Of a stretch of DNA of 64,000 bases, positions 7,166 through 55,755 are shown one piece after another. The translations under genes and the position numbers were made by a program. Source of the DNA: Phycisphaeraceae bacterium (GTDB lineage Bacteria > Planctomycetota > Phycisphaerae > Phycisphaerales > UBA1924); contig JAHBXB010000001.1 of assembly GCA_019636655.1 (NCBI GenBank), positions 930,001-994,000 on the forward strand. The letters run 5' to 3'. Position 1 is the stretch's first letter. Every line of letters begins with the position of its first letter. The notes under the pieces are model-generated. The model was not told where the DNA came from, searched no databases, and was given only the letters and a program-made list of their open reading frames with translations.

Positions 7166-7984
7166 ATGCGGACAGTCGCCATCTCGATTGCAGTACTTCT
7201 CGCCGCCGCGGGCCAAGCCGCGGGCCAAGCACTGCTGCAGCGGCCCGTCTCATCGGGGCCGCAACCGGGGGTAATCACCCCATCAGGCCCGCAGGGGAAC
7301 CCGAATGTCGTGATCGCTCCCGGGAGCGGCCCCGAGTCCGCGGCTGCCTCGCCCCAGCCTGGTCCCGGGCCCGCGCAAGGCGTCACGCCCCCCCCGCAAC
7401 GCGAGCCGGATGGTGTCGCCGCGTCACTCCAACCCTACAGCTTGTTCGCCGTTGTTCCACCGCCGCCGCGCATCTACCAGAAACACGATGTGGTCCAGGT
7501 GGTGATCAACGAATCGAGCATCCAGAAGTTTGAGGCGACGCTGGACACCAAGAAAAAGGAGGCTCTGTCGGCCCAACTCCAGGGCCTCCCGAACCTTGAG
7601 AAACTCCTCGAAACACAGTTGCAGCCCTATGACACCCAGCAGTTGCTCAACCTCCTGCTCTCGGGCCAGAACAACTTCAAGGGCGACGGCTCGCTGGAGC
7701 GGTCAGACCGCTTCACCACCCGGATCAGCGCCACGGTCATTGATGTGAAGCCCAACGGGTCCCTGGTGCTGGAGGCGCGTAAGTCCACCTCGCACAACAA
7801 CGAGACCGTTTCCGTCGTTGTCGCCGGCGTGTGCCGCCCCGAGGACATCACGACCCCCGCCAACACCGTGCAGTCGTCGCAGCTGGCCGACCTGGTCATC
7901 CGCGTCGAGACCACGGGTGATGTCTCTGACACCGCCAGCAAGGGCTGGATTACTAAACTGTTCGACGCCATCTTCAACTTCTGA
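7166..7984 (+). CDS. flgH: Flagellar L-ring protein FlgH, without a lipobox
   Basis: The product has 272 residues. A signal peptide (ISIAVLLAAAGQAAGQA) is followed by a Pro/Gly/Ser-rich linker to about residue 85. The FlgH core then begins SLFAVVPPPPRIYQKHDVVQVVI and continues with DRFTTRISATVIDVKPNGSLVLEARKS and the QLADLVIRVET end. The L-ring sits in the outer membrane, so its presence implies a diderm envelope. Standard FlgH is a lipoprotein with an L-x-G-C box; no cysteine occurs near this signal peptide, so it is either cleaved by signal peptidase I or anchored another way. AGGAGG lies 4 bases before the ATG. Confidence 0.92.
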   Translation: MRTVAISIAVLLAAAGQAAGQALLQRPVSSGPQPGVITPSGPQGNPNVVIAPGSGPESAAASPQPGPGPAQGVTPPPQREPDGVAASLQPYSLFAVVPPPPRIYQKHDVVQVVINESSIQKFEATLDTKKKEALSAQLQGLPNLEKLLETQLQPYDTQQLLNLLLSGQNNFKGDGSLERSDRFTTRISATVIDVKPNGSLVLEARKSTSHNNETVSVVVAGVCRPEDITTPANTVQSSQLADLVIRVETTGDVSDTASKGWITKLFDAIFNF

Positions 7985-8058
7985 CCGACCCACCCGCCGC
8001 CCAGAGGGTGGCACGCCGCTCGCTTAGTACTGGCAGGACGCCGGAGTACCGCCGCAGG

Positions 8059-10186: not shown

Positions 10187-10201
10187 CCGCCGAGCGAAAC
10201 C

Positions 10202-11947
10202 ATGGGTCTGACGACCGCACTCCAGATCGGCCGATCCGCGCTGAACGCGAGCCAGATCGCGCTCCAGGTAACCGGCAACAACTTCGCCAACGCCGCCACA
10301 CCCGGGTATTCGCGCCAGATCGCCACCCTGGCCCCATCCGCGGGCGTCAGCGAGGGCGGCTTTATTTTGGGCCGCGGCGTCTTCGTGCAGGATGTCCGGC
10401 GTCAGACCGACGCGGCGCTCCTGGCCAGGCTCAACTCGTCGGTCTCCCACGAGTCCGCCGCGGGGATGGACCTCCAGCTCCTCTCGCGGGTCGAATCGGT
10501 CCTCAATGAACTGACCGACTCGGATATTTCCAGCGAACTCTCCCGGTTCTTCAACGCATGGTCCGAGCTGGCCAACAGTCCCGGGTCAGCCGGGGCCCGT
10601 TCGCTCGTCGTACAGCAGGGCAGCACGCTTGCCAGCTTCCTGCGCACCACACGCAGCGACCTCGTGCAGATCCGGAATCAACTCGACTCGGAACTCGATG
10701 CGAATGTCAGCCGCGCCAGCGACCTGCTCTCGCAGATCGCCGGTCTCAACAGCTCAATCGTCGCGGCGGAGGGGGGTAGTTCCCAGGCCAACAGTTTGCG
10801 GGACCAGCGGGACTCGCTCGTCCTTCAACTCTCCCAGTACCTTGACATCTCGACGGTCGAGCAGGCCAACGGAACGCTCGACGTGCTCGTTGGCTCGACC
10901 CCGGTGGTCCAGGGAGGCCGTTCGCTCGGACTCCAAGTGCGGCGAGAGTCCGACGGCACCCAATCAAGCGTTCGGATATCGACCATCGACAGCCCCCGAG
11001 ACGTTACAGTCCACTCCGGAACCATCGGCTCCCTGGTGTCTCAGCGAGGCAAGCTCGTTGATGGAACCATTGACTCGATCGACACGATCGCGTCCCAGCT
11101 CATCTTCCAGGTCAACAAGATCCACAGCGTCGGGTACGGCGCCACACCGATGACTTCGATTCGAGGCACGCAGAACGTCCCGGCTGCCGACCTCGTCCGC
11201 TCGCTCAATGACCCCGCCAACTCCACCTTCGCGGCACTGCCGTTTGCCGCGACGAACGGCGGATTCAGCGTTACCGTCACCAACTCACAGACCGGCGCGA
11301 CGCAGACCGTGCGGATCCCGGTGGACCTCGATGGCATCGACAACTCCGGCCAGCCGGGGTTTGCCAACGATACCTCTGTCCAGTCGCTCGCTGCCTCGCT
11401 TGGTTCGATCGCCAACCTTTCCGCCACCACTAACCCCGACGGCACGCTAAGCGTCTCGGCGGCCACCGGCTATTCATTCTCGTTCTCGGATGATTCCTCC
11501 GGCGTCCTCGCCGTTCTCGGTGTGAACTCCTACTTCACCGGCACTACGGCCCGCGACATTGACGTTCGGCAGGACCTCTCTTCGTCGCCGCAACTGCTGA
11601 GCGCCGGCGCCGTTGTCAACGGGCAGCCCAACGACAACGCCAGCGCCATGGGGATCGCCGCCCTCCAGGACGCCGCCAACGCGGCGCTCGGCGGCCAAAC
11701 CATCCGCGGAGCCTGGACGCAGTCCGTCCAGTCAATCGGCGCTCGCACCGCAGAAGCCCAAACCCGGTCGTCCGCCGCGACGCTCGTTCGACAGAATCTC
11801 GACGCCCAGAAGTCCGCCATCTCCGGTGTCAGCGTCGACGAGGAATCCATCAACCTCATTAACTACCAGCGCCAATACCAGGGCGCCGCCCGCTTCATCT
11901 CGGCCGTCGATGAACTGACTCAGATCCTGATCAACCTCATCCGCTAG
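10202..11947 (+). CDS. flgK: Hook-filament junction protein FlgK (HAP1)
   Basis: The product has 581 residues. The N-terminal motif QVTGNNFANAATPGYSRQ at about residues 23-40 and the following VFVQDVRRQTDAAL are typical of FlgK. Its FlgE-like C-terminus reads SVDEESINLINYQRQYQGAARFI and ends with a heptad-rich helix (VDELTQILINLIR). It forms the first of the two junction layers between hook and filament and is secreted by the flagellar type III apparatus. Length is close to the usual 550. flgL follows 41 bases later. Confidence 0.94.
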   Translation: MGLTTALQIGRSALNASQIALQVTGNNFANAATPGYSRQIATLAPSAGVSEGGFILGRGVFVQDVRRQTDAALLARLNSSVSHESAAGMDLQLLSRVESVLNELTDSDISSELSRFFNAWSELANSPGSAGARSLVVQQGSTLASFLRTTRSDLVQIRNQLDSELDANVSRASDLLSQIAGLNSSIVAAEGGSSQANSLRDQRDSLVLQLSQYLDISTVEQANGTLDVLVGSTPVVQGGRSLGLQVRRESDGTQSSVRISTIDSPRDVTVHSGTIGSLVSQRGKLVDGTIDSIDTIASQLIFQVNKIHSVGYGATPMTSIRGTQNVPAADLVRSLNDPANSTFAALPFAATNGGFSVTVTNSQTGATQTVRIPVDLDGIDNSGQPGFANDTSVQSLAASLGSIANLSATTNPDGTLSVSAATGYSFSFSDDSSGVLAVLGVNSYFTGTTARDIDVRQDLSSSPQLLSAGAVVNGQPNDNASAMGIAALQDAANAALGGQTIRGAWTQSVQSIGARTAEAQTRSSAATLVRQNLDAQKSAISGVSVDEESINLINYQRQYQGAARFISAVDELTQILINLIR

Positions 11948-11988
11948 CCATCCCGCGACCAGTCCCAGTACTCATCTCCGAGACCGCC

Positions 11989-14052
11989 ATGAGCTCGATC
12001 CCATCCAACCTGTCGCGTGTCCCGAACCTGCTCGCCTCACAGATCTACTACACCAATCTCAACCGCTCGAACCTTTCCATGCTCCACTTGCAGGAGCAAC
12101 TCGCTTCGGCCAGGTCCGTCAACCGCCCTAGCGACGACTCGGTCAAAGCCGCGTCCATCCTCGCCCTCGACGACATTCTCGAGCGGTCCGAGCAGCGTGT
12201 CCGGAACCTCGATTCCGCCAGCAACTCCCTGAATCTCCTGGATACGTCCATCGGTGAGGCCAACGACCTCGTTCTCCAGGCCAAGGATGTCGCCGCCAGC
12301 CAGATCGGCGCCACGTCCGATGCCGCGACGCGTCGCAACCAGGCCATCGTCATCGACTCGGTCATCCGCCAGCTCTCCTCCCTCGCCAATCGCGAGACCA
12401 ACGGCCTCTACCTCTTTGGCGGAGCAACACCGACCCAGGCGCCGCTCTCGGAGTTCCTCGGCGGGTACCGCTATACCGCGCGTGGCGATGGTCTCTACAC
12501 GGACCTGGGCGCGTCGATCAGGGTCCCGGTCACTCTCGGAGGGAGCAGTACGATCGGCCAGACCTCCGCCCGGCTCCGCTCTACAACGGACCTCAATCCC
12601 AGTCTGACACCCCAGACCCGCATCGCCGACCTCGGAGGTGCGCGAGGGCTTGGCGTCTCGCTCTCTCAACTCTCCTTCTCGTTCAACGGCGGCCCTGCCG
12701 CGACGGTCGACCTCTCCACGGCGGATTCCGTACAGAATGTTGCCGACTCGCTCACGGCCGCGATCCGCCAATACGAAACGGATCACTCGGTCACCATCCT
12801 CGGGCCCGGCGGCATCTCGCTCGTCGGCGGCTCCCTCGCGATCGACGTTGTCCCGGCCGGCAGCGGTCCCAATCCGACGCTGACATTCACCGACATTGGA
12901 GTTGGATCCGTAGCACAGGATCTAGGGCTCTCGGCGGCCCCCTTCTCGGCCACAAGCCCCACCGGGAGCGACCTGAACCCCAGGCTCTCTCTGCTGACTC
13001 CCCTGAGCGCCGTCCCCGGCCTTGCCCTTCCGCTCGGCTCGATCAACCTCCGCTTCACCGGCCCGAATACGTCGTCGCTGTCAACGGTCGACCTTTCCTC
13101 GGCTCAAACCATCGGCGATATCCGGAACCTCATCCAAACCGGTGCCCCCGGCGTCCGGGTCGAAATCAATGCGGCGGGCACCGGCATCGACCTGTTCAAT
13201 GAGGTCTCCGGCCCCCGCCTCTCCGTTGAAGAGGTTCCGCCACCCGCCGGCGGAACCACGGCTACTCAACTGGGAATTCGCTCATACTCCCTCGCAACAG
13301 CTCTCTCCGACTTCAACGACGGCCGCGGCGTACGAATCGTCGACGGAGCTACCAACCCCGTCACCGGCCTGCCCGATCCAGCGGCCAACGTCGATTTCAC
13401 GATCCGCCTTGGCGACGGCAGTTCCTTCTCCGTCGACCTGAGGCCCCAGGATCTCACCGATGTCCAGTCCGTGATCGCCCGGATCAATGCCGAGGCCGCC
13501 GCCGCGGTGACTGCAGGGCAGATCCCACCGGGGTCGTTCTCGGCCGGTCTCACGAACGGCCAGAACGGGATCGCGTTCTTTGACCCCCTCAACCTGGGGG
13601 CGATCACCGTAACCCGCCAGAACAACTCACCGGCGGCCGAGGACCTCGGCCTCGTCGGTGGAACGTACGACAGCGCAAGTGCGACGTATCTAGCGCAAGA
13701 TCGGGCGTCGGTGCGCGTGAACAACTTGTTCAGCACCCTCATTGATCTGCGCGATGCGCTCACCCGTGACGACAGCAATGGCATAGCGATTGCGGGTACG
13801 CAACTCGACGCCGCGGTGGAATCCCTCGCCTCCACCCGCGCCCTGGTCGGCGTGTACGCCAACCGGATCGAGAGGGCGAAGGAACGCCAGGAAGACCAGC
13901 GAGTGCTGGACGAAAAGACGAGATCCGAGCTCCGCGACCTTGACTACACGGATGCGGCAATCCGCTTCAGCCTCCTCCAGACCCAGTTGCAGGCGGGACA
14001 GCAATCCGCCTCACAGGTCCTGACCCGATCCCTCCTCGACTTCCTTGGCTAA
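11989..14052 (+). CDS. flgL: Hook-filament junction protein FlgL (HAP3), enlarged
   Basis: The product has 687 residues, about twice the length of E. coli FlgL (317). Flagellin-like D0/D1 helices are at both ends: LHLQEQLASARSVNRPSDD and SANSLNLLDTS-like NSLNLLDTSIGEANDLV at the start, and the C-terminal IRFSLLQTQLQAGQQSASQVL. The extra middle section (about residues 200-570) holds repeated beta-rich segments of the flagellin hook-IN type, for example TVDLSTADSVQNVADSLTAAI and STVDLSSAQTIGDIRNLI. These would project from the filament surface. It follows flgK and ends the hook-associated block. Confidence 0.9.
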   Translation: MSSIPSNLSRVPNLLASQIYYTNLNRSNLSMLHLQEQLASARSVNRPSDDSVKAASILALDDILERSEQRVRNLDSASNSLNLLDTSIGEANDLVLQAKDVAASQIGATSDAATRRNQAIVIDSVIRQLSSLANRETNGLYLFGGATPTQAPLSEFLGGYRYTARGDGLYTDLGASIRVPVTLGGSSTIGQTSARLRSTTDLNPSLTPQTRIADLGGARGLGVSLSQLSFSFNGGPAATVDLSTADSVQNVADSLTAAIRQYETDHSVTILGPGGISLVGGSLAIDVVPAGSGPNPTLTFTDIGVGSVAQDLGLSAAPFSATSPTGSDLNPRLSLLTPLSAVPGLALPLGSINLRFTGPNTSSLSTVDLSSAQTIGDIRNLIQTGAPGVRVEINAAGTGIDLFNEVSGPRLSVEEVPPPAGGTTATQLGIRSYSLATALSDFNDGRGVRIVDGATNPVTGLPDPAANVDFTIRLGDGSSFSVDLRPQDLTDVQSVIARINAEAAAAVTAGQIPPGSFSAGLTNGQNGIAFFDPLNLGAITVTRQNNSPAAEDLGLVGGTYDSASATYLAQDRASVRVNNLFSTLIDLRDALTRDDSNGIAIAGTQLDAAVESLASTRALVGVYANRIERAKERQEDQRVLDEKTRSELRDLDYTDAAIRFSLLQTQLQAGQQSASQVLTRSLLDFLG

Positions 14053-14181
14053 CGCCGAGGGGGTTGAGTTCAAAGAACGACTCGCCGCATCGGCCGCGGC
14101 GGGCCACGACGACAGGATGTCACCCCGTCGAGGATCGGCGGGATCCTTCAGGATGATCGGCCGACTGACCGGAGCGCACCG

Positions 14182-14637
14182 ATGCAAGTGCGGACCACGA
14201 GATTCGGAAGCCTCGAGATCTCCGACGAGCGAGTGATCTCATTCCCCAAGGGCCTGCTCGGCTTCGCCGATTGCCGCCGGTTCTGCCTGCTCGAGCCGGC
14301 GGAGGACGCGTGTTTTTTCTGGCTGCAGTCGCTCGATGAGCCGTCGCTCGCGTTCGTCGTCACCGATCCGTCGTTCTTCATCCCGGAGTACACCGTTCCG
14401 ATCCGGGAAGACCAGATGGTCGAACTCAAGCTCCCGCGCCTCGAGGACGCCCAGGTTTTCGTGATCGTCAACAAGGTTGATCTCACGCTGACCGGCAACC
14501 TCCAGGGCCCGCTGGTGATCAACACGCTGGACCGCGTCGCAGAGCAGTTCGTGCTCGCCGAGAAGCGGTGGACCACCCGCCACCCCCTCGTCAACCTGCA
14601 GTCCCAGGCGACCACCCCGGCCGCCATGTCCGCCTGA
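14182..14637 (+). CDS. fliW: Flagellar assembly factor FliW
   Basis: The product has 151 residues. Conserved FliW features are VISFPKGLLGFADCRRFCLLE near residues 18-38 (in part: FPKGLLGF) and the ending that includes NTLDRVAEQFVL. In other bacteria FliW binds both flagellin and CsrA; when flagellin accumulates it releases FliW, which then restrains CsrA's repression of flagellin translation. Finding fliW directly before csrA and two flagellin genes matches that partner-switch circuit. GGAG sits 7 bases before the ATG. Confidence 0.92.
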   Translation: MQVRTTRFGSLEISDERVISFPKGLLGFADCRRFCLLEPAEDACFFWLQSLDEPSLAFVVTDPSFFIPEYTVPIREDQMVELKLPRLEDAQVFVIVNKVDLTLTGNLQGPLVINTLDRVAEQFVLAEKRWTTRHPLVNLQSQATTPAAMSA

Positions 14638-14803
14638 CCCCTCTCCCCGGGCGGACCGCTGGCCTGCCCAAGCACCGTGATCCACAAGACCACCACGATC
14701 CCGGACCGCGTTCTACAGCCGCGTTGGCCATGGATGGCCGCGCGCCCATTCACCCCCGCTACCCCTCGCGCTAGCACGAACGGACCTAGGAAGGAGCCGA
14801 TGA

Positions 14804-15142
14804 ATGCTGGTTCTCTCACGTCAGCGCGACGAGACGATCATGATCGGCGACGAGATCGAGATCACCGTCGTCGACATTCGAGGCGACAAAGTTCGCCTCG
14901 GGATCACCGCACCCACTCGAATTGCCGTGCACCGCAAAGAGGTGTACGAGGCGATCCGGGCGGAGAACGAGCGGGCATCCCATCTCAACGCGCAGATGAA
15001 CAGCGGCGACATGGATGTCCTGCGCCGAACACTCGCACCTGGACCGCAGCGGACCCCCGGCAAGTCCAGGCCCCGCGGCATCTCCAGCCTTACCAACCCG
15101 CCACGGGCCGAGCCGCCGCCGGGCGATGCCCGAACCGCATGA
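14804..15142 (+). CDS. csrA: Carbon storage regulator CsrA with a long C-terminal tail
   Basis: The product has 112 residues. The RNA-binding core is [16 protein letters not shown] through the strand [22 protein letters not shown] (quoted in part: [16 protein letters not shown]), including the conserved Arg in the VHR segment. The core ends near residue 60. The remaining 50 residues are Pro/Arg-rich and not part of ordinary CsrA (about 60-75 residues). It represses translation by binding GGA motifs over ribosome sites; candidate targets are the two flagellin leaders downstream. AAGGAG lies 7 bases before the ATG. Confidence 0.93.
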
Positions 15143-15247
15143 CCCCTCCCCAGCACCAGCCGGCCACGCGCCGCAACCACCTCTATCAGATGCGCACGCT
15201 GGATTGCCGCGGCGCTTCAACGGCACTGTGTCACCCGCCCTTAGCCT

Positions 15248-15263
15248 CAATCACGGAGGATTG
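15248..15263 (+). promoter_or_regulatory. CsrA-type hairpin over the first flagellin ribosome site
   Basis: CAATC pairs perfectly with GATTG around the hexaloop ACGGAG, giving the classical CsrA target shape (ANGGAN in a loop). The loop GGAG is also the Shine-Dalgarno of the flagellin ATG at 15266, so CsrA binding would block initiation. An outer AGCC/GGCT pairing (15243-15246 with 15268-15271) could extend the stem past the start codon. Confidence 0.7.
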
Positions 15264-15265
15264 CA

Positions 15266-16819
15266 ATGGCTAGGATCAACTCGAATATTCCAAGCATGAT
15301 CGCCCGGGCCAACCTCAACCGGGCCAACAAGGACTTGGAAGTCCGCCTTCAGCGTCTCTCAACCGGGCTTCAGATCAACCGCGGCGCGGACAACCCGGCC
15401 GGCCTGATCATCTCCGAGCGCCTCCGCTCGGAGGTCTCGGGGCTCAACCAGGCCGTCGCCAACTCCGAGCGTGCCTCCTCGGTGATCGCGACGACCGAGG
15501 GCTCGCTCGCCGAGGTATCCGACCTCCTGAACTCCATCAAATCGCTCGTGGTTGAGGCCGCCAACACCGGCGCCATCTCCAACGAGGAGCGAGCCGCCAA
15601 CCAGCTTCAGATCGATTCGGCGATCGAGACGATTACCAGGATCTCCAACTCGGCCTCGTTCGGTGGGCTCAAACTGCTCAACGGCGAACTCGACTACGTG
15701 CTTTCCGGGGTCAGCACCTCGGCCATCTCCAAGGCCCAGATCCACGGCGCAAACTTCGCCGGGCAGCGGAACATCCAGGTCAACGTTCAGACCGTAGCAT
15801 CCGCTCAGACCGGCTCGCTCTTCCTGCGGGGCGATTACGCCTCGGCACCGGCCTTCAACGGCACGCTCCAGTCCTCGACGACCCTCGAAATCGCCGGCGT
15901 CCATGGCGTCCAGACCCTGGAGTTCCTCTCGGGAACCAGCCTGGCCCAGCTTGTCTCTTCCATCAACTCGTTCTCCGAATCGACAGGCGTCTCCGCGTCC
16001 CTCATCAACCCGGGCAACCCGTCCTCCGGTCTGGTTTTCTCCAGCACCGGGTACGGGTCCGCCTCGTTCGTCTCCGTCAAGCGGATCGGCGGTCCCGTTG
16101 ACGGCGGCTACTTCGCCACCTACGAGCTGCAGAATAACTTCGCCCGCCCGGCTGCCTTCTCGTTCTCTGACCCCACCATCGCCGCCCAACTCACGGTCTC
16201 CAACCGCGATGAGGGTCGCGACATCTCCGCCATCGTGAACGGCACCCTCGCGTCCGGCAGGGGCACCAACATCTCCCTGCAGAACTCGACTTCTCTCTCC
16301 CTCGACCTATCTCTGTCCACCGCGTTTGCAACCCGAAACAGTCAGACCTCCACCTTCTACATCACCGGTGGCGGGGCCTTATACCAGCTGGGCGGCGAGA
16401 TCAACACCTCTCAGCAGGTCAACATCGGTGTACAATCCGTGGCGGCCTCTCGACTCGGCGGCGCCATGGTGAACGGCGTCATGCAGTTCATCGCCTCTCT
16501 CAAGTCGGGCGGCGCCAACGACCTGCGATCGAGGAACTTCACCGGCGCCAGCACGATCCTCGACTCAGCCATCGACGAGGTCGCGATGATCCGTGGTCGC
16601 CTCGGCGCTTTCGAGAAGAACACGCTACAGACCAACGTCCGATCGGTACAGGCCGCCATCGAGAACCTCACCGCCTCGGAATCCAACATCCGCGACGCTG
16701 ACTTTGCCAAGGAAACCTCGGCCCTCACCCGGTCGCAGATCCTGACCTCCGCCGGCACTTCGGTTCTTTCTCTTGCGAACCAGCAGTCCCAGCAGGTCCT
16801 CCAGCTGCTCCGAGGTTGA
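15266..16819 (+). CDS. fliC: Flagellin, first copy
   Basis: The product has 517 residues. The N-terminal D0/D1 helices show NLNRANKDLEVRLQRLSTGL and INRGADNPAGLIISERL; the C-terminal helices show SAIDEVAMIRGRLGAFEKN and ESNIRDADFAKETSALTR. Both ends are needed for filament polymerisation. The middle (about 170-400) is a beta-rich surface domain with hook-IN-type segments such as STTLEIAGVHGVQTLEF. GGAGG lies in a CsrA-type hairpin just before the ATG. An intrinsic terminator follows at 16853-16895, so it is probably a separate transcript from the second flagellin. Confidence 0.95.
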   Translation: MARINSNIPSMIARANLNRANKDLEVRLQRLSTGLQINRGADNPAGLIISERLRSEVSGLNQAVANSERASSVIATTEGSLAEVSDLLNSIKSLVVEAANTGAISNEERAANQLQIDSAIETITRISNSASFGGLKLLNGELDYVLSGVSTSAISKAQIHGANFAGQRNIQVNVQTVASAQTGSLFLRGDYASAPAFNGTLQSSTTLEIAGVHGVQTLEFLSGTSLAQLVSSINSFSESTGVSASLINPGNPSSGLVFSSTGYGSASFVSVKRIGGPVDGGYFATYELQNNFARPAAFSFSDPTIAAQLTVSNRDEGRDISAIVNGTLASGRGTNISLQNSTSLSLDLSLSTAFATRNSQTSTFYITGGGALYQLGGEINTSQQVNIGVQSVAASRLGGAMVNGVMQFIASLKSGGANDLRSRNFTGASTILDSAIDEVAMIRGRLGAFEKNTLQTNVRSVQAAIENLTASESNIRDADFAKETSALTRSQILTSAGTSVLSLANQQSQQVLQLLRG

Positions 16820-16852
16820 TCCGCCCGGTAGAGCGTCCCAATAACCCGTACG

Positions 16853-16895
16853 CCGCCCCCGCATCGTCTCGATAACGGGGGCGGTTTTTATTTTT
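16853..16895 (+). terminator. Intrinsic terminator after the first flagellin
   Basis: A 9-base-pair perfect stem CCGCCCCCG / CGGGGGCGG with a 14-base loop is followed by TTTTTATTTTT. Confidence 0.9.
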
Positions 16896-17132
16896 GGGGC
16901 ATGTTCCGGCGCTGGTAATCGATTCCGCGCTCAACCCGCCCCCGGTTGCTTCCGATGCTCTTGGCCGTCACCCCGCCGCCTCGGCAGCGTGGGCACGACA
17001 CCGCGGACGGAGCGTGATCCGCCGCGGAGCCCCGGACCTGAGCCGCCCGGGGCACGTGTTACGAGCCGCACACCGCGGCCGGGTGCCCACGAACGAACGG
17101 GCCGCGTCCCATGGCAGGGACGCACGCAGAGC

Positions 17133-17142
17133 ACACGGAGGT
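17133..17142 (+). promoter_or_regulatory. CsrA consensus over the second flagellin ribosome site
   Basis: ACACGGAGGT matches the CsrA consensus ACANGGANGU at every fixed position and includes the GGAGG ribosome site of the ATG at 17147. Only a very short stem is possible around it, unlike at the first flagellin. Confidence 0.6.
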
Positions 17143-17146
17143 CCAC

Positions 17147-18676
17147 ATGAGCCGGATCAATACGAACGTCCAGTCACTGATCGCACAGCGCGTCCTGAGC
17201 CAGAACAATGCGAACCTCAGCCAGTCGCTCGAGCGGCTGTCCACGGGCCTCCGCATTAGCCGCGGCAAGGACGACCCCGCCGGCCTGATCGCATCGGAGA
17301 ACCTCCGATCTGAGAAGGCCGCCATCAACGCCGCGATCTCGAACTCCGAGCGCGCCGACCAAGTCGTCAACATCGCCGAGGGCGGCCTGCAGGAGGTCTC
17401 AAGCCTTCTGACCGAACTCCAGGGACTCGTCACCGGCACCGCCAACAAGGCCGGCATCAGCCAGTCGGAGCGTGAGGCCAACCAGCTCCAGATCGACTCG
17501 ATCCTCCAGACCATCGACCGCATCGCCTCGGCCACCTCGTTCCAGGGTGTCAAGCTGCTCAACGGCAACTATGACTACTCCACGACCGGCGTCTCCGCCT
17601 CGGTCGTCTCGTTCCAGGTTAACGGCGCCAAGCTCCAGCAGGGCCAGAACCTGAACGTCAATGCCGTCGTCACCACCTCTGCCCAGCAGGCCGGCCTCTA
17701 CCTCTCCACCAACGGCGCCCTGAACCTCAATGGTGGCGTCAACTCCGCCTTCACCATCGAGATCAGCGGCAACCTCGGCTCGCGCCAGCTCTCCTTCGCG
17801 TCGGGCACCACGGTGGCCACAATCGCCTCGCAGATCAATACCTTCACCGATGTCACCGGCATCCGCGCCTCCGCTGGCACCACCGGCATCTACCTCGAGT
17901 CCTCGGAGTTTGGCTCCGACAAGTTCGCCTCGGTCAAGGTGATCAACGCCGCCAACATCCAGGGCACCGGCGTGGGCATCTACAACCGCCAGGCCCAGAA
18001 CTTCTCTGCGATCAACACCACCATCGCCGCGGCCTACACCACTCCCGCCGCCCAGAACGGCTACAAGGACAACGGCCAGGACATCGTCGCCACCATCAAC
18101 GGTGTCGCTGCCACCGCCAAGGGCAAGACGTTCTCCATCAACACCGACTTCCTCAACGTCTCCCTCACCCTCAACACCACGCAGGCTCAGACCGTCGGCG
18201 TCAAGAATGCGTTCACCATCACCGGCGGCGGCGCCGACTTCCAGCTCGCCGGCGACGTGAACATCGGCTCCAAGGTCGCCATCGGTATCGGCGACGTTGC
18301 AGCCCGCAAGCTCGGCACCACTGATGTCTCTGGAAACCTCCGCTTCCTTTCCGACCTTGCCTCGGGCAAGACCCTCAACGTTGTCTCCGGTGACATCACC
18401 AACGCCCAGAAGGTGATCAGCCAGTCGATCAACCAGATCACCTCCCTCCGCGGCCGCCTCGGTGCGTTCCAGAAGAACACCGTCGGCGCCACGATCCGCT
18501 CGCTGGGCGTCTCCCTCGAGAACACGACCGCCGCCGAGTCCGTCATCCGCGACGCCGACTTCGCCACCGAGACGGCCAAGCTCACTCGCGGCCAGATCCT
18601 CGTCTCCGCGGCCACCCAGGTTCTCACCCTGGCCAACAGCTCGCCCCAGTCGGCCCTCCAGCTCCTCCGCGGCTAA
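17147..18676 (+). CDS. fliC: Flagellin, second copy
   Basis: The product has 509 residues. The start MSRINTNVQSLIAQRVL is preceded by GGAGG; an in-frame ATG 36 bases upstream has no ribosome site and is rejected. The N-terminal D0/D1 has SLERLSTGLRISRGKDDPAG; the C-terminus has SINQITSLRGRLGAFQKN and ESVIRDADFATETAKLTR. A middle beta-rich domain like that of the first flagellin is present but diverged. A single-species filament could therefore be mixed, or the copies may be used under different conditions. Its own promoter probably lies in the 250 bases after the upstream terminator. Confidence 0.95.
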   Translation: MSRINTNVQSLIAQRVLSQNNANLSQSLERLSTGLRISRGKDDPAGLIASENLRSEKAAINAAISNSERADQVVNIAEGGLQEVSSLLTELQGLVTGTANKAGISQSEREANQLQIDSILQTIDRIASATSFQGVKLLNGNYDYSTTGVSASVVSFQVNGAKLQQGQNLNVNAVVTTSAQQAGLYLSTNGALNLNGGVNSAFTIEISGNLGSRQLSFASGTTVATIASQINTFTDVTGIRASAGTTGIYLESSEFGSDKFASVKVINAANIQGTGVGIYNRQAQNFSAINTTIAAAYTTPAAQNGYKDNGQDIVATINGVAATAKGKTFSINTDFLNVSLTLNTTQAQTVGVKNAFTITGGGADFQLAGDVNIGSKVAIGIGDVAARKLGTTDVSGNLRFLSDLASGKTLNVVSGDITNAQKVISQSINQITSLRGRLGAFQKNTVGATIRSLGVSLENTTAAESVIRDADFATETAKLTRGQILVSAATQVLTLANSSPQSALQLLRG

Positions 18677-46991: not shown

Positions 46992-49604
<2,613 letters not shown>

Positions 49605-49779
49605 GAGGTAGTCTCCGAATCCGCGACCGGGCAGACCGACTTGGACGCCCGGTCGTTTGTTCTCACCACGCCCGCGGCGGGCCGCCGCGTGGACAATCAG
49701 CCTGACCTGCACGAACCCCTGTTCACCCCGCCCGTCGCGGCGATCTGATTCATCCGCCGCGCCCGCCCCCGAATCAAGC

Positions 49780-49822
49780 AAAATTGCACAAGCGGGCGGC
49801 CGGGTTCACCCGATCCGCCCGC
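49780..49822 (-). terminator. Intrinsic terminator after rpsU
   Basis: On the minus strand GCGGGCGG / CCGCCCGC encloses an inner CGGGT / ACCCG hairpin and is followed by TTGTGCAATTTTGC. It separates rpsU from the pyrophosphatase gene. Confidence 0.65.
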
Positions 49823-49833
49823 GATGAACCGGC

Positions 49834-50136
49834 CTACCTGGACGGGGGTCCCCCCGACCCCCTCCCGCCGCCCGCGCCGGGTCGCCCGCCGCGCGGACCA
49901 CCCTTTCCAGCCTTGCCCTTCGGGCCCTTCGCCTCTCGCTCCACAGGCCCCATGGCCTCACGAACCCGACGGGCCACCGACTTGCGCGCCGCACGACGGC
50001 TTCGCTCCGAGGGCTTCTCGTAGAACTCTTTGCGCTTGATGTCCTTCGTCAGGCCCTCTTTCTCGCACAGCTTCTTGAACCGCCGCATCATCTGCTCGAC
50101 GGTCTCACCGCTGCGCGCCTTGATTCGGATCGACAT
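49834..50136 (-). CDS. rpsU: 30S ribosomal protein S21 with Gly-rich tail
   Basis: The 100-residue protein starts MSIRIKARSGETVEQMMRRF and continues KLCEKEGLTKDIKRKEFYEK, which is typical S21. GAGGAG precedes the ATG by 4 bases, ruling out the longer frame upstream. Ordinary S21 is about 65-71 residues; here the last 30 are Gly/Arg/Pro-rich (GPRGGRPGAGGGRGSGG), a low-complexity extension. S21 aids start-site recognition on the 30S subunit. It lies downstream of the ATPase gene, separated by about 150 bases. Confidence 0.92.
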   Translation of the reverse strand: MSIRIKARSGETVEQMMRRFKKLCEKEGLTKDIKRKEFYEKPSERSRRAARKSVARRVREAMGPVEREAKGPKGKAGKGGPRGGRPGAGGGRGSGGPPSR

Positions 50137-50283: not shown

Positions 50284-53200
50284 CTATCGTGGCGCCGCCG
50301 CGCCGGCCCCCCCCGCTGCCCCCTCCGCGAGCCTGCGGGCAACCTCGGCAATAAACCCATCCGAGGGCATCGCATACGGCCGGAACTTCTCGGTCAGGCC
50401 CTGTTCCTCATTGAAATACAACGCACGGTGCTGTCCCAGGACGCTTGCCGCGGGGCTGTCGATCAGGCTGCTCGAGTCCGATGCACTCATCTGGAACGCA
50501 ACCCGATGGTCAAACCCGCGGATCGCCTGCCGGTCCAAGGTCCGGTTGAGCGTTGCCACCGTGTCGCACCAGACGATTGCGTGGATGCCCACGGAGGGGC
50601 CCTCCCGAAGGATCGCAGCAAAGTGCTTGTCCGCAGTCGCCTCGCCGCTGGAATCGCTCGAGAAGTCAAACTCGTTTTCCGGGCGACGCAGCGCCCGGTA
50701 CCGCTGCAGCCCAAGGACCAGGAGGTACACCGGCGGATACCCCAGCCGATCCTCATCCTGCCGTCGAGCCAACTCCGCGGCCAGCGAAAGGACGGCGCCA
50801 GGCGTGTCCTTGTACTCCACGACGTCGGACCGAATCCCAAGCCTTTGGGCGACCCCGGCGATCAGCCCCGCCGAGGCCGAGTCCGGCGTGCTGCCATCAA
50901 ACACCACAAATCTCGCGGCTGCGCCGGTCCCATCCACGACGCCAAGCCCGTGCTGCGCGGCGAGCCCCACCATGGCTGATGCGAGCATGGCGACCGCCGC
51001 TTCATCGCGCTGCCCGACGATCAGCACATTGCCCCCCTCCTGCCGTCGAAGGACCGGACCCGTCGGATCCTTGATCGCAATCGGCTCACCCAGCCAGGCA
51101 ACCGCACCCGACGCCGCCGCGCTCCCCTTGGCGGCCAGCGCGGCATCGAGCGCCCGATTCCTCGATATGTCGGCGGGAGCGTGACCCTCGAACACGATCA
51201 TGCTGCCGGGACGGTGGCCCTGGTTCTCCCACCGGCGCCGCACGGCCTCGAGCCGAATCTCCCGCTCCTGGTCTTCCAGCCACGAGATCTGGAACGGGCT
51301 GTTTCCCTGCACCGCGCCGCTCGCGTCGTTGTAGATCGCCTCACCGGGACGCGTGAGCAGCCTCGCCGCCGAGTTGTCGTCGCTGAGGATCAGGTAGGAG
51401 TCCGCCTCGCTGCACTGCAGCGCGATGCGCACCGCCATCTGCCCCATCGTGCTTCGGGCAAGGCTGAAAGCACCGCCCAGCGTCTGCGATCCGAGCACCA
51501 CGTGCATCCCGAACGCGCGGCCCTGACGCACGAGGCGATCCAGCAGCAGGGCCGCTTCCTGGCCCAGCTTGTCGTCTTCGACAAACATCTCCTGGAACTC
51601 GTCAACGATGAGCAGGATCCGTGCCAGCTTGCGCCCCGAAACCTCCCGATACCCGGCAACATCCTGGACGATCAGTTCACGGAACATCTCGCCGCGTCGC
51701 TTCATCTCCGCGTCAAGTCGGCGGAGAACGCTGATGCCGAACTCCCGTTCGCTCTCGATCGCCACCACACGTGCGTGGGGCAACTCAAGCCTCGCGTACG
51801 TCTTGAACTCAACTCCCTTCTTGAAGTCGACAAGGTACAGCTCGACCTCGTCGGGGCTGTACCACAGCGCGAGGTTGGTGATCAGCACGTGCAGCAGGGT
51901 CGACTTGCCGGACCCCGTGCGGCCCGCGATGAGCGCGTGCTGCGCCGTGCCCCGGCCCAGTGTGATGTACTGGAGCTTGGTCGCCCCTGCCCGCCCAAGA
52001 GGGATCCGTACCTCGTCGGCGGTAGAGAGCGGCCAGAGTTGCTCCGGCGGAGCCACGTGCTTGAACGGCACCTGCACCCGCCCCGCGTCCTTCGATCGAC
52101 TCCCCACTGCATGAACCACCCGCGTGAACTCGTTCGTCGCGGCGGGCGCATCCAGCGCCAGCGGAAGGTCTGCAAAGTCGGGATCCTCCAACACCATTGT
52201 CCCCCGCTTCCACACGACGCGCACGCACGCCCGCTCGAGGTCCGCGATCGGCAGACCCGGGGGTGCGGGCCGACGCGTGTCCATCGCGATCAACGCGTGG
52301 ACGCCGCACCGGGGACCGCTCGTGATGATGCTCGCCAGGCGCTTGGCGGCGGCCTCGTCGAAGCTCACCGGATAGTCCGCGATCACGAGGAACCGGAACG
52401 GCTCAGCGACCTCGCCCGCGTGCCGGTTGTACTCGTCGATGCTCGCGAACTCGTTGCGGAGATACTTCTGGATCACCGTTTCCATGTGCTCGGTCAGATC
52501 GGCAAGCCTCGCTTCGATGTGACGCGGCTCGGTCCAGATTCGGTCCGAAACCAGCAGCGGCTCGAAGTCCGCCAAGTGCATGAACCCGGCGAAACTCTCG
52601 CCAAGGCCGACCGGATCGATGATCGTGAACCTCACCTTCCCCGGGGGGAACGTCGCCAGCAACCGCAGCATCGTCGCCTGCAGCGTGCCGATCGCCTCCG
52701 CTCGCCCCTCGCCCCCGGTGCGGATCAGCAGCGACCCGCGTTCCGGAAGTTCGAGCAACACGGGCAGCGCGAAGTTCGCCGGCCCCGCAAGATCAAGCCG
52801 GAGATCGCCGGGTACCCCCCCCGGCATCGCGGTCAAGTCTATCTGCACCGATCCGATCCTCGCGAGGCGCTCCCCAACCTCGGTCGTTGAGTAGTCATCA
52901 CTCAACACCTCCGACCACGCCGGGGCGCTTCGTCGCTCGGCTCGCCCAACCTTCTCGAGATCGGCCCTGATGCTCGCTATCCGAGTCCGCCAATCCGCCT
53001 CCAAAGCGGCCCATCCCTCGACCTCCGCCGCGCGTGCCTGCTCACGCCGCGCGCCGGCCGTCGCCCGCACTCGCGCGGTGACCTCGGCGTGCGTTTGCTC
53101 CGCAAGCCGAATCGCCAGTTCACCCTTCTCCTGAGCGGCGGCCACCTCCGCATCCCGCTCCGCCGTGATCGCCTCCTCCGCCGCGAGGTGTCTCGCACGG

Positions 53201-54210
53201 ATCTCCGCGATCCGCTCCGCCGAGACCCTCCGGACTTCAACGGCAGCGAGTTCGTGCTTCTCGCGAGCCGATCGGATCTCCCGATCGCGCGGCTCCCGCA
53301 ACGCCGCCTCCTCCTGCTGCCGCGCCCGCATCGCCTGCTCGACCGCTATCGGGGCCAATCGCCGGATCCGCGCAACAGAACCAGCAATCCGGCCCGCCGC
53401 TCGCGCGACCTGCCTCGACGCCACGCGGCTGAGCAGCACAAGGAGCCCGGCGATCAGGAGCGTCGCGCCGGATCCCGCGGCCCCAATTACTGCCGGCGTC
53501 GCGCCCTTGAGGTAGACCCAGGTCAGGGCCGCGCCGCCTGCCGCGGCCCCCAGCACATACACGACCAGGAGCGGCGTGATCGTCATGCGCGCCAGCACGA
53601 GCGAATCAAGCCGCCGAAACCCATACTGGGCCGCCTCGACCTCCCGTTGAATCGCGTCGACAGCGTCCCCCGCTTGGTCCAGTTCCCCCGTCGGAGCCAC
53701 CAGCAGGCGGTCGGGTCGGCGTCCTAGTCGGGCAAGCGATTCCGCGGCGCTCCGCTCAACCACCAGGGCATCAGCCACCGCCTGATCGATCACTTTGCGC
53801 GACTGCTCGAACTTCTCGCGGGGCTTGTGCGCGTGCGGCTCGTACAGCGTTTCGGCCATCCAGGTCGATTCCTGCAGCCGCTTCTCCGCCCGTGATCGCT
53901 CGTGGTCGGCCCGCTCGGTGATGTCAGCAACCGCAGCGTCCCGACTCCGGTCGTTCGCCGCGAGCGCCGCGGCCGCGCGCCGCTGCACCTCGTCGGCCCG
54001 CCTTGACGCCTCGTCACCGGCCGCCAGTCGTACCTGGGAGGCCTCCTCGTCCGCCTGCTCGAGCTCGCGCCGAAGCTGGGCCTCGGCTCCAGCTGTTCCG
54101 GCTTCGGCTTCGCTCTCGATCGCCGCCTGCCGCTCGGCGCGCTCGCGCAGCAGCGCTCGAAGGTCACCGAGCACGCGACGCTCCAGACTGGTCAGGGGTC
54201 CATCGGGCAT
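50284..54210 (-). CDS. FtsK/EssC-like ATPase of a type VII-secretion-like cluster
   Basis: The product has 1308 residues from the ATG at 54210; a TTG at 54270 would overlap the upstream gene. Order: coiled coil (about 5-175), two membrane helices (209-234 and 239-261), second coiled coil (280-425), then three FtsK-like modules. Module 1 (about 480-720) has a degenerate Walker A (RTGGEGRAEA). Module 2 has canonical GRTGSGKST (763-771) and ILLIVDEF (865-872). Module 3 has VGQRDEAA in place of Walker A. Three-module architecture matches EccC/EssC motor proteins of type VII secretion, but the coiled coils replace the usual FHA or short N-terminus. It lies downstream of two WXG100-like genes. Confidence 0.85.
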   Translation of the reverse strand: MPDGPLTSLERRVLGDLRALLRERAERQAAIESEAEAGTAGAEAQLRRELEQADEEASQVRLAAGDEASRRADEVQRRAAAALAANDRSRDAAVADITERADHERSRAEKRLQESTWMAETLYEPHAHKPREKFEQSRKVIDQAVADALVVERSAAESLARLGRRPDRLLVAPTGELDQAGDAVDAIQREVEAAQYGFRRLDSLVLARMTITPLLVVYVLGAAAGGAALTWVYLKGATPAVIGAAGSGATLLIAGLLVLLSRVASRQVARAAGRIAGSVARIRRLAPIAVEQAMRARQQEEAALREPRDREIRSAREKHELAAVEVRRVSAERIAEIRARHLAAEEAITAERDAEVAAAQEKGELAIRLAEQTHAEVTARVRATAGARREQARAAEVEGWAALEADWRTRIASIRADLEKVGRAERRSAPAWSEVLSDDYSTTEVGERLARIGSVQIDLTAMPGGVPGDLRLDLAGPANFALPVLLELPERGSLLIRTGGEGRAEAIGTLQATMLRLLATFPPGKVRFTIIDPVGLGESFAGFMHLADFEPLLVSDRIWTEPRHIEARLADLTEHMETVIQKYLRNEFASIDEYNRHAGEVAEPFRFLVIADYPVSFDEAAAKRLASIITSGPRCGVHALIAMDTRRPAPPGLPIADLERACVRVVWKRGTMVLEDPDFADLPLALDAPAATNEFTRVVHAVGSRSKDAGRVQVPFKHVAPPEQLWPLSTADEVRIPLGRAGATKLQYITLGRGTAQHALIAGRTGSGKSTLLHVLITNLALWYSPDEVELYLVDFKKGVEFKTYARLELPHARVVAIESEREFGISVLRRLDAEMKRRGEMFRELIVQDVAGYREVSGRKLARILLIVDEFQEMFVEDDKLGQEAALLLDRLVRQGRAFGMHVVLGSQTLGGAFSLARSTMGQMAVRIALQCSEADSYLILSDDNSAARLLTRPGEAIYNDASGAVQGNSPFQISWLEDQEREIRLEAVRRRWENQGHRPGSMIVFEGHAPADISRNRALDAALAAKGSAAASGAVAWLGEPIAIKDPTGPVLRRQEGGNVLIVGQRDEAAVAMLASAMVGLAAQHGLGVVDGTGAAARFVVFDGSTPDSASAGLIAGVAQRLGIRSDVVEYKDTPGAVLSLAAELARRQDEDRLGYPPVYLLVLGLQRYRALRRPENEFDFSSDSSGEATADKHFAAILREGPSVGIHAIVWCDTVATLNRTLDRQAIRGFDHRVAFQMSASDSSSLIDSPAASVLGQHRALYFNEEQGLTEKFRPYAMPSDGFIAEVARRLAEGAAGGAGAAAPR

Positions 54211-54241
54211 ACGGGCAACTGTTGGCAGCCTACCACCACGC

Positions 54242-54454
54242 TCACTCGCAATCACGTCGGCTCTGGGCAATCACTTCGGCCAGTCGGTTCATCGCGGCCA
54301 TCGCTCCTCGAACCTTGGAATCCAGTTGCTGCAGGTAGTCCTCTTCAAACTTGGCCCGCGCCGCATCGTCCCACTGGTCCTTGACCTGGGCCCAGGCGAA
54401 CTTCAGTTCCTTGAGCCCGTCCCTCAACCTGACCTGCGCCACACTCACGCTCAT
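54242..54454 (-). CDS. WXG100-like small helical protein B
   Basis: The 70-residue product is predicted to be two helices joined by a turn around W28-D-D. The pattern FAWAQVKDQWDDAARAKFEEDY resembles WXG100/Esx proteins (Leu..Trp-x-x..Phe), although the Gly of WXG is Asp. GGGAG lies 6 bases before the ATG. It is 31 bases before the ATPase gene and 22 bases after the coiled-coil gene. A substrate or adaptor of the ATPase is the likely role. Family assignment is by eye only. Confidence 0.65.
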   Translation of the reverse strand: MSVSVAQVRLRDGLKELKFAWAQVKDQWDDAARAKFEEDYLQQLDSKVRGAMAAMNRLAEVIAQSRRDCE

Positions 54455-54476
54455 CGTCCGCTCCCGCAAGCCATGA

Positions 54477-55463
54477 CTACCGCCCCGCAAGAAGATCCCT
54501 GTTGTGAACGTCCAGCACCGCGGCGACCCCCCCGGATACCACGACGCACACCCATCCCTCGGGCAGTTCCAGAACTTCGCTGCTGCGTGGTACAAGACGC
54601 ACCAGATCGCCGAGTGTGATGGTCTCGTACACGCCCGCCTCCGAATCGGCCACCATCGAGCCGACAAACCACCCGCTGTCCTCCGGACACGCCGGGCACC
54701 GACGCTCGAAGTACACGTCCCTCCCGTCGAGACTCCCCGCACTGACCACAGCAAGCAGCCCCGGCTGGATCGCTTCACCCCCGAGTCCCAGCCTCGCGAG
54801 CAGCCCCCCCTCAATCGCATCGATTACCAGGGCAATCCTCCCGACAACGCCCGCCTCTCCCGACTTGACCGCACGCATCCGTGCCTCGTCGCTCGGGGTC
54901 CGCCGACGGAGCCTCGCATGGTCACTGGCTTGGACCCCTTGCCCACCGGATTCGGTGCTGGCCGCGGCTGTTCCGCCCGTCCCCTTCGAAACCATCGCAT
55001 AAGCCTGCAGATGCTCGATCATCTTTCCCAGACGGCTCATCGCTCCCGGCATCTCGCGGGCGACCACATCCTGCATGGTCTGGCTGGCGCCACGGTACAG
55101 CGCGAACTCGCGGTCGAGCACTCGAGCCCACTTCTTCACCGCCTCGACCTTGCGCTCGGCCTCCTCCAAGCCACGTTTGGCCGCATCGAGAGCATCCCGC
55201 TCCTCGAATGCCCTCGCTCGCTCCGGTAGCGCCGTCAGTTCCTTCCGGTACACCGCGCTCTTGGCCTGCGCCACCCGTTCCTGCCGCTTCCGAACCTCCC
55301 GCTGCCAATGGGCCAACTGCTCGTGAGTAAGCCATTGCATTGCCCGCTCGGCTTCCGAATCGCACTCCGCGAGCGCCGCCGAGGCCGCTTCGCCGAACTT
55401 GGACACGGCGCTCCGGAAGCGGTCCAGCGCCTCGACCGACATGACCCGTGCACCGCCCGCCAT
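54477..55463 (-). CDS. Coiled-coil protein of the WXG100/ATPase cluster, function unknown
   Basis: The 328-residue protein has a long helical N-terminal half (about 8-170) with heptads and many charged residues (WQREVRKRQERVAQAKSA, RKVEAVKKWARVLDREFALY). This spacing is like LXG-type or Esx-linked adaptors. A low-complexity linker (TGGTAAASTESGGQG) follows. The C-terminal domain (about 205-328) is beta-rich, with CPACPEDSGWFVGSMVADSE and SEVLELPEGWVCVVVSGGVA. No signal peptide or membrane helix is seen. GGGAG lies 9 bases before the ATG. It sits between the two WXG100-like genes, so it is probably an adaptor, chaperone or secreted partner. Confidence 0.65.
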   Translation of the reverse strand: MAGGARVMSVEALDRFRSAVSKFGEAASAALAECDSEAERAMQWLTHEQLAHWQREVRKRQERVAQAKSAVYRKELTALPERARAFEERDALDAAKRGLEEAERKVEAVKKWARVLDREFALYRGASQTMQDVVAREMPGAMSRLGKMIEHLQAYAMVSKGTGGTAAASTESGGQGVQASDHARLRRRTPSDEARMRAVKSGEAGVVGRIALVIDAIEGGLLARLGLGGEAIQPGLLAVVSAGSLDGRDVYFERRCPACPEDSGWFVGSMVADSEAGVYETITLGDLVRLVPRSSEVLELPEGWVCVVVSGGVAAVLDVHNRDLLAGR

Positions 55464-55482
55464 CCGCCGCGTCTCCCGTGTT

Positions 55483-55755
55483 CTACCGCTGGTGCAGGTA
55501 CTCCTCGATCTTCTCGGCCTTCTTCAACAAGAACGGGATGTGCTGCGCCGACAGATCGACAAACCGCCCAAGCACCCGCATCGTCTGGTCGAACTCCTCC
55601 GCGAACTTCTGCTGCTCCTGGTCCCTCCAGGTTTGGCCCAGCGTGGTCAGACGCCCCTGCAGAACGCCCATCTGGTTCTGCAGGTTCGCATTGAATCGCT
55701 TGAGATCCTGCGCAAACCGCCTGAGTTCTTCCGGATCGACGATCGCCTTGCTCAT
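55483..55755 (-). CDS. WXG100-like small helical protein A
   Basis: The 90-residue protein forms a helix-turn-helix with the turn TTLGQTWRDQEQQKFAEEF centred on W43; WRD replaces the usual WXG, but the Leu..Trp..Phe spacing fits. The second helix ends in RKAEKIEEY-like KKAEKIEEYLHQR, similar to the acidic export tail region of Esx proteins. GGAGGG lies 6 bases before the ATG, within 14 bases of the amylase stop, so translation may be coupled to that gene. It is the first member of the secretion-like cluster. Confidence 0.75.
   Translation of the reverse strand: MSKAIVDPEELRRFAQDLKRFNANLQNQMGVLQGRLTTLGQTWRDQEQQKFAEEFDQTMRVLGRFVDLSAQHIPFLLKKAEKIEEYLHQR

Follow-up and report, generated by a model that had tools for sequence, protein, structure and literature searches.

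A conserved type VII-like module of four genes in the diderm Planctomycetota as a candidate minimal exporter

Introduction

In type VII secretion, of types VIIa and VIIb as well as VIIc-j, a small WXG100 protein (EsxA or TsxA) is paired with a membrane ATPase (EccC, EssC or TsxC), and in the available text of Garrett et al. 2024, types VIIc-j are confined to Bacillota and Actinomycetota, with four nucleoside triphosphatase (NTPase) domains each (PMC11217815). Does a comparable pairing make up an exporter in a cell with two membranes? This question is raised by four adjoining genes in a 64,000-nucleotide stretch of DNA from Phycisphaeraceae bacterium (contig JAHBXB010000001.1, positions 930,001 to 994,000; the whole stretch is called the window below). 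A sequence-only reading had taken these genes for a compact type VII-secretion-like cluster on one strand, with gaps of 19-31 bases. All four are indeed present in that span, on the minus strand from 55755 to 50284, in the order Esx1, coiled-coil protein, Esx2 and ATPase, with intergenic gaps of 19, 22 and 31 bases:

55483..55755, minus strand: Esx1 (hairpin 1), WXG100-family helical hairpin of 90 amino acids, with W-R-D-Q-E at the turn
54477..55463, minus strand: coiled-coil protein of 328 amino acids, a long helical hairpin of about 150 amino acids followed by a C-terminal Imm33-like beta domain
54242..54454, minus strand: Esx2 (hairpin 2), shorter WXG100-like hairpin of 70 amino acids, with W-D-D at the turn
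50284..54210, minus strand: FtsK/EccC-type ATPase, with a coiled coil, two hydrophobic segments, a long stalk helix and three NTPase modules
53404..53610, minus strand: predicted membrane region of the ATPase, two hydrophobic segments by hydropathy (P0004 residues 216-284)
51895..51927, minus strand: Walker A motif of the middle ATPase module, AGRTGSGKSTL (P0004 residues 777-787)

The start codons of the four genes were chosen by comparison with homologues. For the ATPase, the ATG at 54210 gives 1308 amino acids, and the alternative GTG at 54255 gives 1323; the latter form, P0004, was the one analysed and is used for numbering. The coiled-coil protein was modelled and analysed from an internal ATG at 55442 (321 amino acids), seven residues shorter than the gene product. 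The cluster is thus real, and it is a type VII-like module conserved across genomes of a phylum whose cells have two membranes. What its sequences suggest, with about even chances of being right, is that it forms a minimal type VII-like export module by which a hairpin complex would be exported across the inner membrane.

The Four Genes Form a Conserved Set

A scan of genome contigs for the ATPase found at least 583 relatives, and the locus counts given here are for the best 80 of those together with the window (81 loci). Nearly all of the best 80 carry names from the Planctomycetota, for the most part those of Phycisphaerales and of other planctomycete bins; one Alphaproteobacteria bin, one from Lentisphaerae and a few named just bacterium do not. 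A neighbourhood survey across Planctomycetota, which the sequence-only reading had proposed as a check, bore out the cluster: all four genes occur together in 62/81 loci, which argues that their proximity is not due to chance. In 15 of the remaining 19 loci, less than 1.5 kb of sequence lies ahead of the ATPase gene, too little to show whether partners stand there; L014, L023, L026 and L057 have at least 7 kb upstream of the ATPase and no partners there. Gene order and strand are identical in 57/57 sets with full-length Esx1 and ATPase, five of the 62 full clusters having been left out of the order and co-variation counts for a truncated hairpin 1 or ATPase. Between any two of the four proteins, sequence distances are correlated (r 0.61-0.85, with maxima of 0.10-0.15 in 500 permutations), most strongly for the coiled-coil protein with the ATPase, a pattern that shared descent alone can produce. 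The carriers of all four genes include complete genomes of environmental bacteria: Singulisphaera acidiphila DSM 18658, Limnoglobus roseus PX52 and Planctomycetales bacterium 10988.

The set holds together even where its genes do not. In a sample of 392 genomes of the window's phylum, inferred to be Planctomycetota, Esx1, the ATPase (at thresholds of E up to 1e-60) and the N-terminal domain of the coiled-coil protein are each found in 61 genomes, the last with one match per genome, one of them weak. All three occur in 57 genomes and any of the three in 65; by pairs, Esx1 and the ATPase share 58, Esx1 and the coiled-coil protein 59, and the ATPase and the coiled-coil protein 58. Some of the exceptions are weak matches (G362, G256) or fragmented bins, and one genome (G076) carries two full-length ATPases. 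In six genomes, Esx1 and the ATPase lie 186 to 3,415 kb apart on one contig, and in at least five more they are on separate contigs. The three genes stand at three separate places in G024, G105, G087, G137, G194 and G356; Esx2 adjoins the coiled-coil gene in four of these six (L121, L123, L125 and L126) and was not seen in the other two (L122, L124). At L103, L105 and L107, the genes for Esx1, the coiled-coil protein and Esx2 are together and the ATPase is elsewhere. At three Esx1 loci of such genomes (L099, L101 and L113, in G024, G105 and G137), no partner is detected within 15-17 kb, the partners being hundreds of kb off or on another contig; the profile matches these Esx1 proteins over all 90 positions. 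Because so few members are lost when the genes are dispersed, the set probably serves one function, with the coiled-coil protein as a core part. The distribution is patchy, at 61/392 genomes overall and 3/10 among the listed genomes of the window's own family.

A recent island is disfavoured as the origin of the cluster by its base composition, which is like that of the window (GC content 0.671, with a window mean of 0.658, a standard deviation of 0.007 and a maximum of 0.676, in steps of 5,472 bases), and by its flanks, in which no family of open reading frames (ORFs) recurs widely. Outside the four-gene span, no ORF family is found in more than 6/81 loci, among ORFs of at least 60 amino acids up to 8 kb on each side where the contig allowed. 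One such family includes, downstream of the cluster at L080:15171-18869, a protein of 1233 amino acids in which a kinase is joined to a tubulin-like domain; the family is found at eight loci, in six of them outside the cluster span.

The Small Hairpin Proteins Belong to the WXG100 Superfamily

Both small proteins had been called WXG100-like from their sequences, and profile searches bear this out, with a difference between the two. Esx1 stands well above the Pfam WXG100 cut-off of 27.3 bits, at 38.8, and Esx2 falls below it, at 21.4, its link to the family coming from profile search: the Esx2 profile also finds Esx1 in most loci, and the Esx1 profile finds Esx2 weakly in six. These comparisons support the assignment of both proteins to the WXG100 superfamily, Esx2 below the Pfam cut-off. 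Conservation is strict around the turns. In Esx1, W43, D45, E47, F51, F55 and Y86 are invariant in 59/59 homologues; in Esx2, the tryptophan and aspartate of the turn are invariant in 67/67, and a cysteine near the C-terminus is present in 59/67. The motif at the turn of both hairpins is thus W-x-D and not the Trp-Xaa-Gly from which the family takes its name.

This variant turn has a precedent. The top match of the Esx1 profile in the Protein Data Bank (PDB) is HP0062 of Helicobacter pylori (3fx7; 50.7 bits, E 1.6e-12), with the W-R-D turns aligned, and the EsxB and EsxA chains of Gram-positive bacteria rank below it. HP0062 resembles Esx1 in hairpin length and shares its W-R-D turn, and the available text of PMC3397514, which notes its WRD, also reports that its gene clusters with an FtsK/SpoIIIE gene, as is the case for Esx1 here.

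The Coiled-Coil Protein Looks Like a Core Part

The predicted model of the coiled-coil protein (321 amino acids, pLDDT 89.3) has a two-helix hairpin, with helices at 3-70 and 75-153, and a C-terminal beta domain. Its nearest structures in the PDB are generic coiled coils, with no Foldseek match at E <=0.001 and a best Z of 11.4, which speaks neither for nor against an LXG-like fold. The C-terminal domain (window 54477-54800) matches the Imm33-like family PF24719 at 32.1 bits (cut-off 27). That family is found in 24/392 genomes of the phylum and lies within the coiled-coil gene in four (G000, G325, G368 and G384); since it also matches genomes that lack the module, the domain may not signify immunity here. 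Among 64 homologues, 15 have at least 300 amino acids, and 14 of those 15 carry an SGW motif in the C-terminal part, indicating that the C-terminal tips are alike and not varied. The other 49 are shorter than 300 amino acids and consist of the helical domain and a tail, without SGW there and without the Imm33-like domain. With a single match in each genome, nearly always in the company of the ATPase, the protein looks like a core part of the module and not a swappable toxin. On these grounds and on the alike C-termini, a variable toxin is rejected for the phylum sampled.

A Three-Module ATPase of Its Own Kind

The ATPase scores 119.6 bits against Pfam FtsK_SpoIIIE (cut-off 24). With the NCBIfam models it scores 114.8 for EccCa, 99.7 for EssC and 25.1 for FtsK, all below the cut-offs of these models (509.15 for EccCa). 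A model of its C-terminal 1134 residues, built on 47 sequences (pLDDT 82.8), has long helices and three alpha/beta modules, at P0004 residues of about 464-724, 749-1009 and 1056-1318. Among 68 planctomycete homologues of at least 1250 amino acids, shorter ones being left out, Walker A is kept in the middle module only: GK[ST] is found in 0/68 for module 1, GxTGSGKST in 65/68 for module 2 and GK[ST] in 0/68 for module 3. In all 68, hydrophobic segments precede the modules, by hydropathy.

The sequence-only reading had described this protein as an FtsK/EssC-like three-module ATPase, and the part of this that concerns nearest structures is upheld. The top Foldseek ranks are held by EccC and EssC chains (4nh0, E 2.3e-31), with FtsK motor domains lower (6t8b, E 1.2e-15), and PDB sequence searches also place EccC/EssC above FtsK. 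In structural alignment, the N-terminal part of EccC5 matches the stalk and module 1 (residues 213-534; Z 15.6 over 268 aligned residues, rmsd 5.7), and EssC D3 matches module 3 (Z 18.0 over 221, rmsd 3.6). The tree does not extend this likeness to membership. In a tree of the active modules with 27 rows, the three-module ATPases, those borne on plasmids and phage included, form one clade (support 97/97), with the planctomycete ones inside it (98/95). The EccC and YukB domain-1 rows group weakly outside this clade with one Embleya row (85/43), and the FtsK/conjugation rows are also outside it (90/90). The E. coli FtsK row was left out, its match being in two short pieces, so that the FtsK group of the tree is the FtsK of the host genome alone. 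Clustering with DNA-translocating FtsK, which the sequence-only reading had named as a result that would tell against it, was not seen: the three-module clade stands apart from the FtsK of its own genome and from conjugation-type ATPases. As sampled, the ATPase thus belongs to a three-module clade of its own, apart both from plain FtsK and from the EccC/EssC group. That it is the only FtsK of the cell is ruled out, as contig C7 of the genome encodes another (202.8 bits).

The Host Envelope and the Surroundings of the Cluster

The gene for the flagellar L-ring protein had been taken to imply an outer membrane, a view confirmed by its family match and by an Omp85/BamA-type gene elsewhere in the genome (150.7 bits). 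FlgI is encoded in the window as well, and the presence of FlgH with Omp85 identifies the cell as a diderm; no LptD was found in the genome by searches whose controls worked.

7166..7984, plus strand: flgH, L-ring gene and outer-membrane marker outside the module (PF02107, 121.7 bits)

The flagellar genes of the window, at 7166-18676, include FlgH, FlgI, FlgN, FlgK and two flagellins. Closer to the module, 14 bases upstream and on its strand, is a gene for an alpha-amylase that also has a dockerin match. Directly after the ATPase, at window 49834-50136, a gene for ribosomal protein S21 encodes a long basic tail at the C-terminus, rich in glycine and proline, and a gene for an H+-translocating pyrophosphatase lies at 46992-49781 on the strand of the cluster (PF03030, 597 bits).

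Relatives on Plasmids and Phage

Outside the phylum, ATPases alignable over two to three modules at 28-31% identity are found on plasmids of Rhodococcus, Caballeronia, Deinococcus and Helicobacter and on a faecal phage scaffold. With the Esx1 profile, the Caballeronia locus scores 81.4 bits, the Helicobacter one 54.7, Rhodococcus L082 42.9 and the Deinococcus one 27.0; among the six loci searched, the coiled-coil profile has a match in Rhodococcus L082 (E 9e-7) and a weak one in Caballeronia (E 0.001). Middle-module activity is not a universal pattern, as no plain Walker A match is present in the relative from Deinococcus.

The gene order on the plasmid of Helicobacter sp. (L086:5740-10142) is a small gene, a WHH/colicin-type DNase, a SUKH immunity gene, another small gene and the ATPase. 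This cluster, which is not the H. pylori locus, looks like a toxin-immunity cassette tied to the three-module ATPase family; its middle gene is a nuclease, and its ATPase has 823 amino acids and no membrane segment at the N-terminus. The order on the Caballeronia plasmid (L083:4870-14853) is a WXG100 gene, genes for 436, 113 and 76 amino acids, and the ATPase, in surroundings with VWA, CARF, PP2C phosphatase and kinase genes that are reminiscent of regulated conflict systems. The Rhodococcus cluster adjoins TerD genes. Across the wider ATPase family, there may thus be several functions.

Relation to Known Systems

The sequence-only reading had held that such a machine would be unusual in a diderm. 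As a novelty this does not stand: that the pairing is unreported in diderms is ruled out by PMC3397514, PMC3482391 and PMC10765036, even from the text of these sources that is available. In Zhang et al. 2012, footnote 6 of a table describes a solo WXG protein with a three-domain YueA-like ATPase, its middle domain active, in planctomycetes and other diderms, and refers to the solo WXG systems as mobile (PMC3482391). The ATPase here, with its three modules, Walker A in the middle one only and planctomycete host, is of the same kind. In contrast to the system of the footnote, two hairpins and a fixed coiled-coil protein accompany it instead of a solo WXG, and its base composition is window-like and its sets are nearly complete even when scattered; such sets fit purely mobile systems poorly, though the distribution is patchy and relatives lie on plasmids. 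The available text of a 2023 review regards Gram-negative WXG100 genes with FtsK/SpoIIIE neighbours as unconfirmed as secretion systems (PMC10765036). The pairing of WXG100 proteins with three-module ATPases in diderms has thus already been glimpsed in print, its function unconfirmed.

Two further comparisons place the module among characterised systems. Compared with types VIIa/VIIb and VIIc-j, as given in the available text of PMC11217815, it has three modules and not four, W-x-D and not W-x-G, and another phylum as its host; it also has no YukD match and no further conserved gene adjoining the four. The LXG-Lap1-Lap2 complexes, as set out in the available text of PMC10765036, resemble it in combining a longer helical protein with two small WXG100-like hairpins, and differ in that here there is no LXG match and the helical protein has a single copy, with a C-terminus that does not vary. 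In the available text of the open PMC literature, neither the set of four genes nor its co-occurrence was found described, and no such planctomycete system is named in the available text of PMC7159879, PMC4631099 and PMC12419801. To this the present analysis adds the make-up of the module from four genes, the coiled-coil protein as a core part and co-occurrence without linkage, together with the membrane segments in the planctomycete branch of the ATPase and the sequence link between Esx1 and HP0062.

Export, DNA Handling or Conflict?

How might such a module work? The ATPase would form a ring in the inner membrane, and Esx1 and Esx2 would pair as a folded four-helix bundle. By analogy with the LXG-Lap and PE-PPE complexes, the coiled-coil hairpin protein would be a fixed partner of this pair, either an adaptor or a co-exported carrier, and ATP turnover in the middle module would push the complex into the periplasm, where the product may act, since nothing that was found crosses the outer membrane. 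Export is supported by the WXG100 membership of Esx1 and by the placement of EccC/EssC above FtsK in Foldseek and PDB sequence searches, as well as by the alignments with EccC5 and EssC D3. It is further supported by the conserved four-gene order, the co-occurrence, the correlated distances, the hydrophobic segments and the separate FtsK in the genome.

Several points weigh against export. Esx1 is the sole WXG100 match in the genome, leaving no obvious cargo; divergent hairpins could have been missed, since the same search of the genome also missed Esx2. Type VII ATPases characteristically combine a pair of transmembrane helices with four NTPase domains in the cytoplasm, and the ATPase here has three NTPase modules in its model and lies outside the EccC/EssC rows in the module-2 tree. 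Among the six ATPases from outside the phylum, a crude hydropathy measure shows a membrane segment before the modules in that of Rhodococcus L082 and in none of the other five. Other type VII parts had been reported as not visible, and genome searches sustain this in part. With B. subtilis controls that matched, the genome gave no match for YukC/EssB (EsaA and EssA were not searched for), for the LXG domain (PF04740) or for YukD (no search for EccD was made). The EsaB/YukD-like ubiquitin-fold protein is a domain of EccD in type VII secretion systems of subtype a (T7SSa) and, to our knowledge, is not found in T7SSd. The EccB search was empty in the genome and in the control genomes alike; EccD, EccE and MycP were not searched for.

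Might the ATPase move DNA instead? It could be a membrane-anchored translocase of DNA or nucleoprotein, or a factor that handles the chromosome, with the hairpins as regulators or adaptors and not cargo. The active module is FtsK-like, and the highest Z in VIA-align, another point against export, belongs to motor domains of FtsK aligned on the middle module (31.7, over 277 residues at rmsd 2.5), with EccC/EssC chains at Z 27.8-28.4, mostly over more residues but with large rmsd; in the tree, the three-module clade is no closer to EccC/EssC than to FtsK/conjugation-type ATPases. The sequence and Foldseek rankings nevertheless favour EccC/EssC, another FtsK is encoded in the genome, we know of no WXG100 partner of FtsK, and presence in 61/392 genomes speaks against an essential role at the chromosome, so that DNA handling is rather unlikely. 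An intracellular conflict or defence module, in which the plasmid ATPases would be soluble and act on invading DNA or on nuclease proteins, with the ATPase of planctomycetes as their anchored descendant, is suggested by the DNase and SUKH genes between the small genes of the Helicobacter cluster, by the VWA, PP2C and kinase genes beside the Caballeronia cluster and TerD beside that of Rhodococcus, by the five of six relatives without N-terminal membrane segments, and by the phage FtsK-like families that are the best PHROGs matches of the ATPase, the other three proteins having none. We consider it quite improbable, as hydrophobic segments are present in 68/68 planctomycete ATPases, flanking ORF families outside the four-gene span recur in at most 6/81 loci, and the complete but scattered sets are unlike mobile islands. 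In PADLOC, similarly, only the ATPase is matched, by FtsK/HerA-type entries (SspH, mad8 and HerA) and by a weak coiled-coil LeoBC match, with none for the other three proteins.

The coiled-coil protein could also be an effector, delivered as a polymorphic toxin with the hairpins as Lap-like export partners. The order hairpin, large helical protein, hairpin and ATPase is as in Helicobacter, where the large protein ends in a nuclease domain, and the coiled-coil profile does reach the Rhodococcus and, weakly, the Caballeronia plasmid. This is nonetheless very unlikely, given one match per genome in near-strict company of the ATPase, 49/64 copies of less than 300 amino acids, tips that are alike in the longer ones (SGW in 14 of 15) and no recurring immunity-type gene beside the cluster.

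Implications

The export reading has a bolder form, in which planctomycetes, as diderms, would possess a type VII-like exporter that needs no more than its four components, Esx1, Esx2, the coiled-coil core protein and the three-module membrane ATPase, maintained vertically as one functional set even when its genes are scattered and acting without any other envelope component, in a periplasmic or cell-surface role unlike that of any known type VII system. We put this forward tentatively and hold it to be doubtful as a whole. If the hairpins are exported, the core of type VII secretion would work with one membrane protein, inside a two-membrane cell, and this would bear on the origin of type VII secretion. 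With four defined genes and carriers that have complete genomes, a question that is called functionally unconfirmed in the available text of PMC10765036 becomes directly testable.

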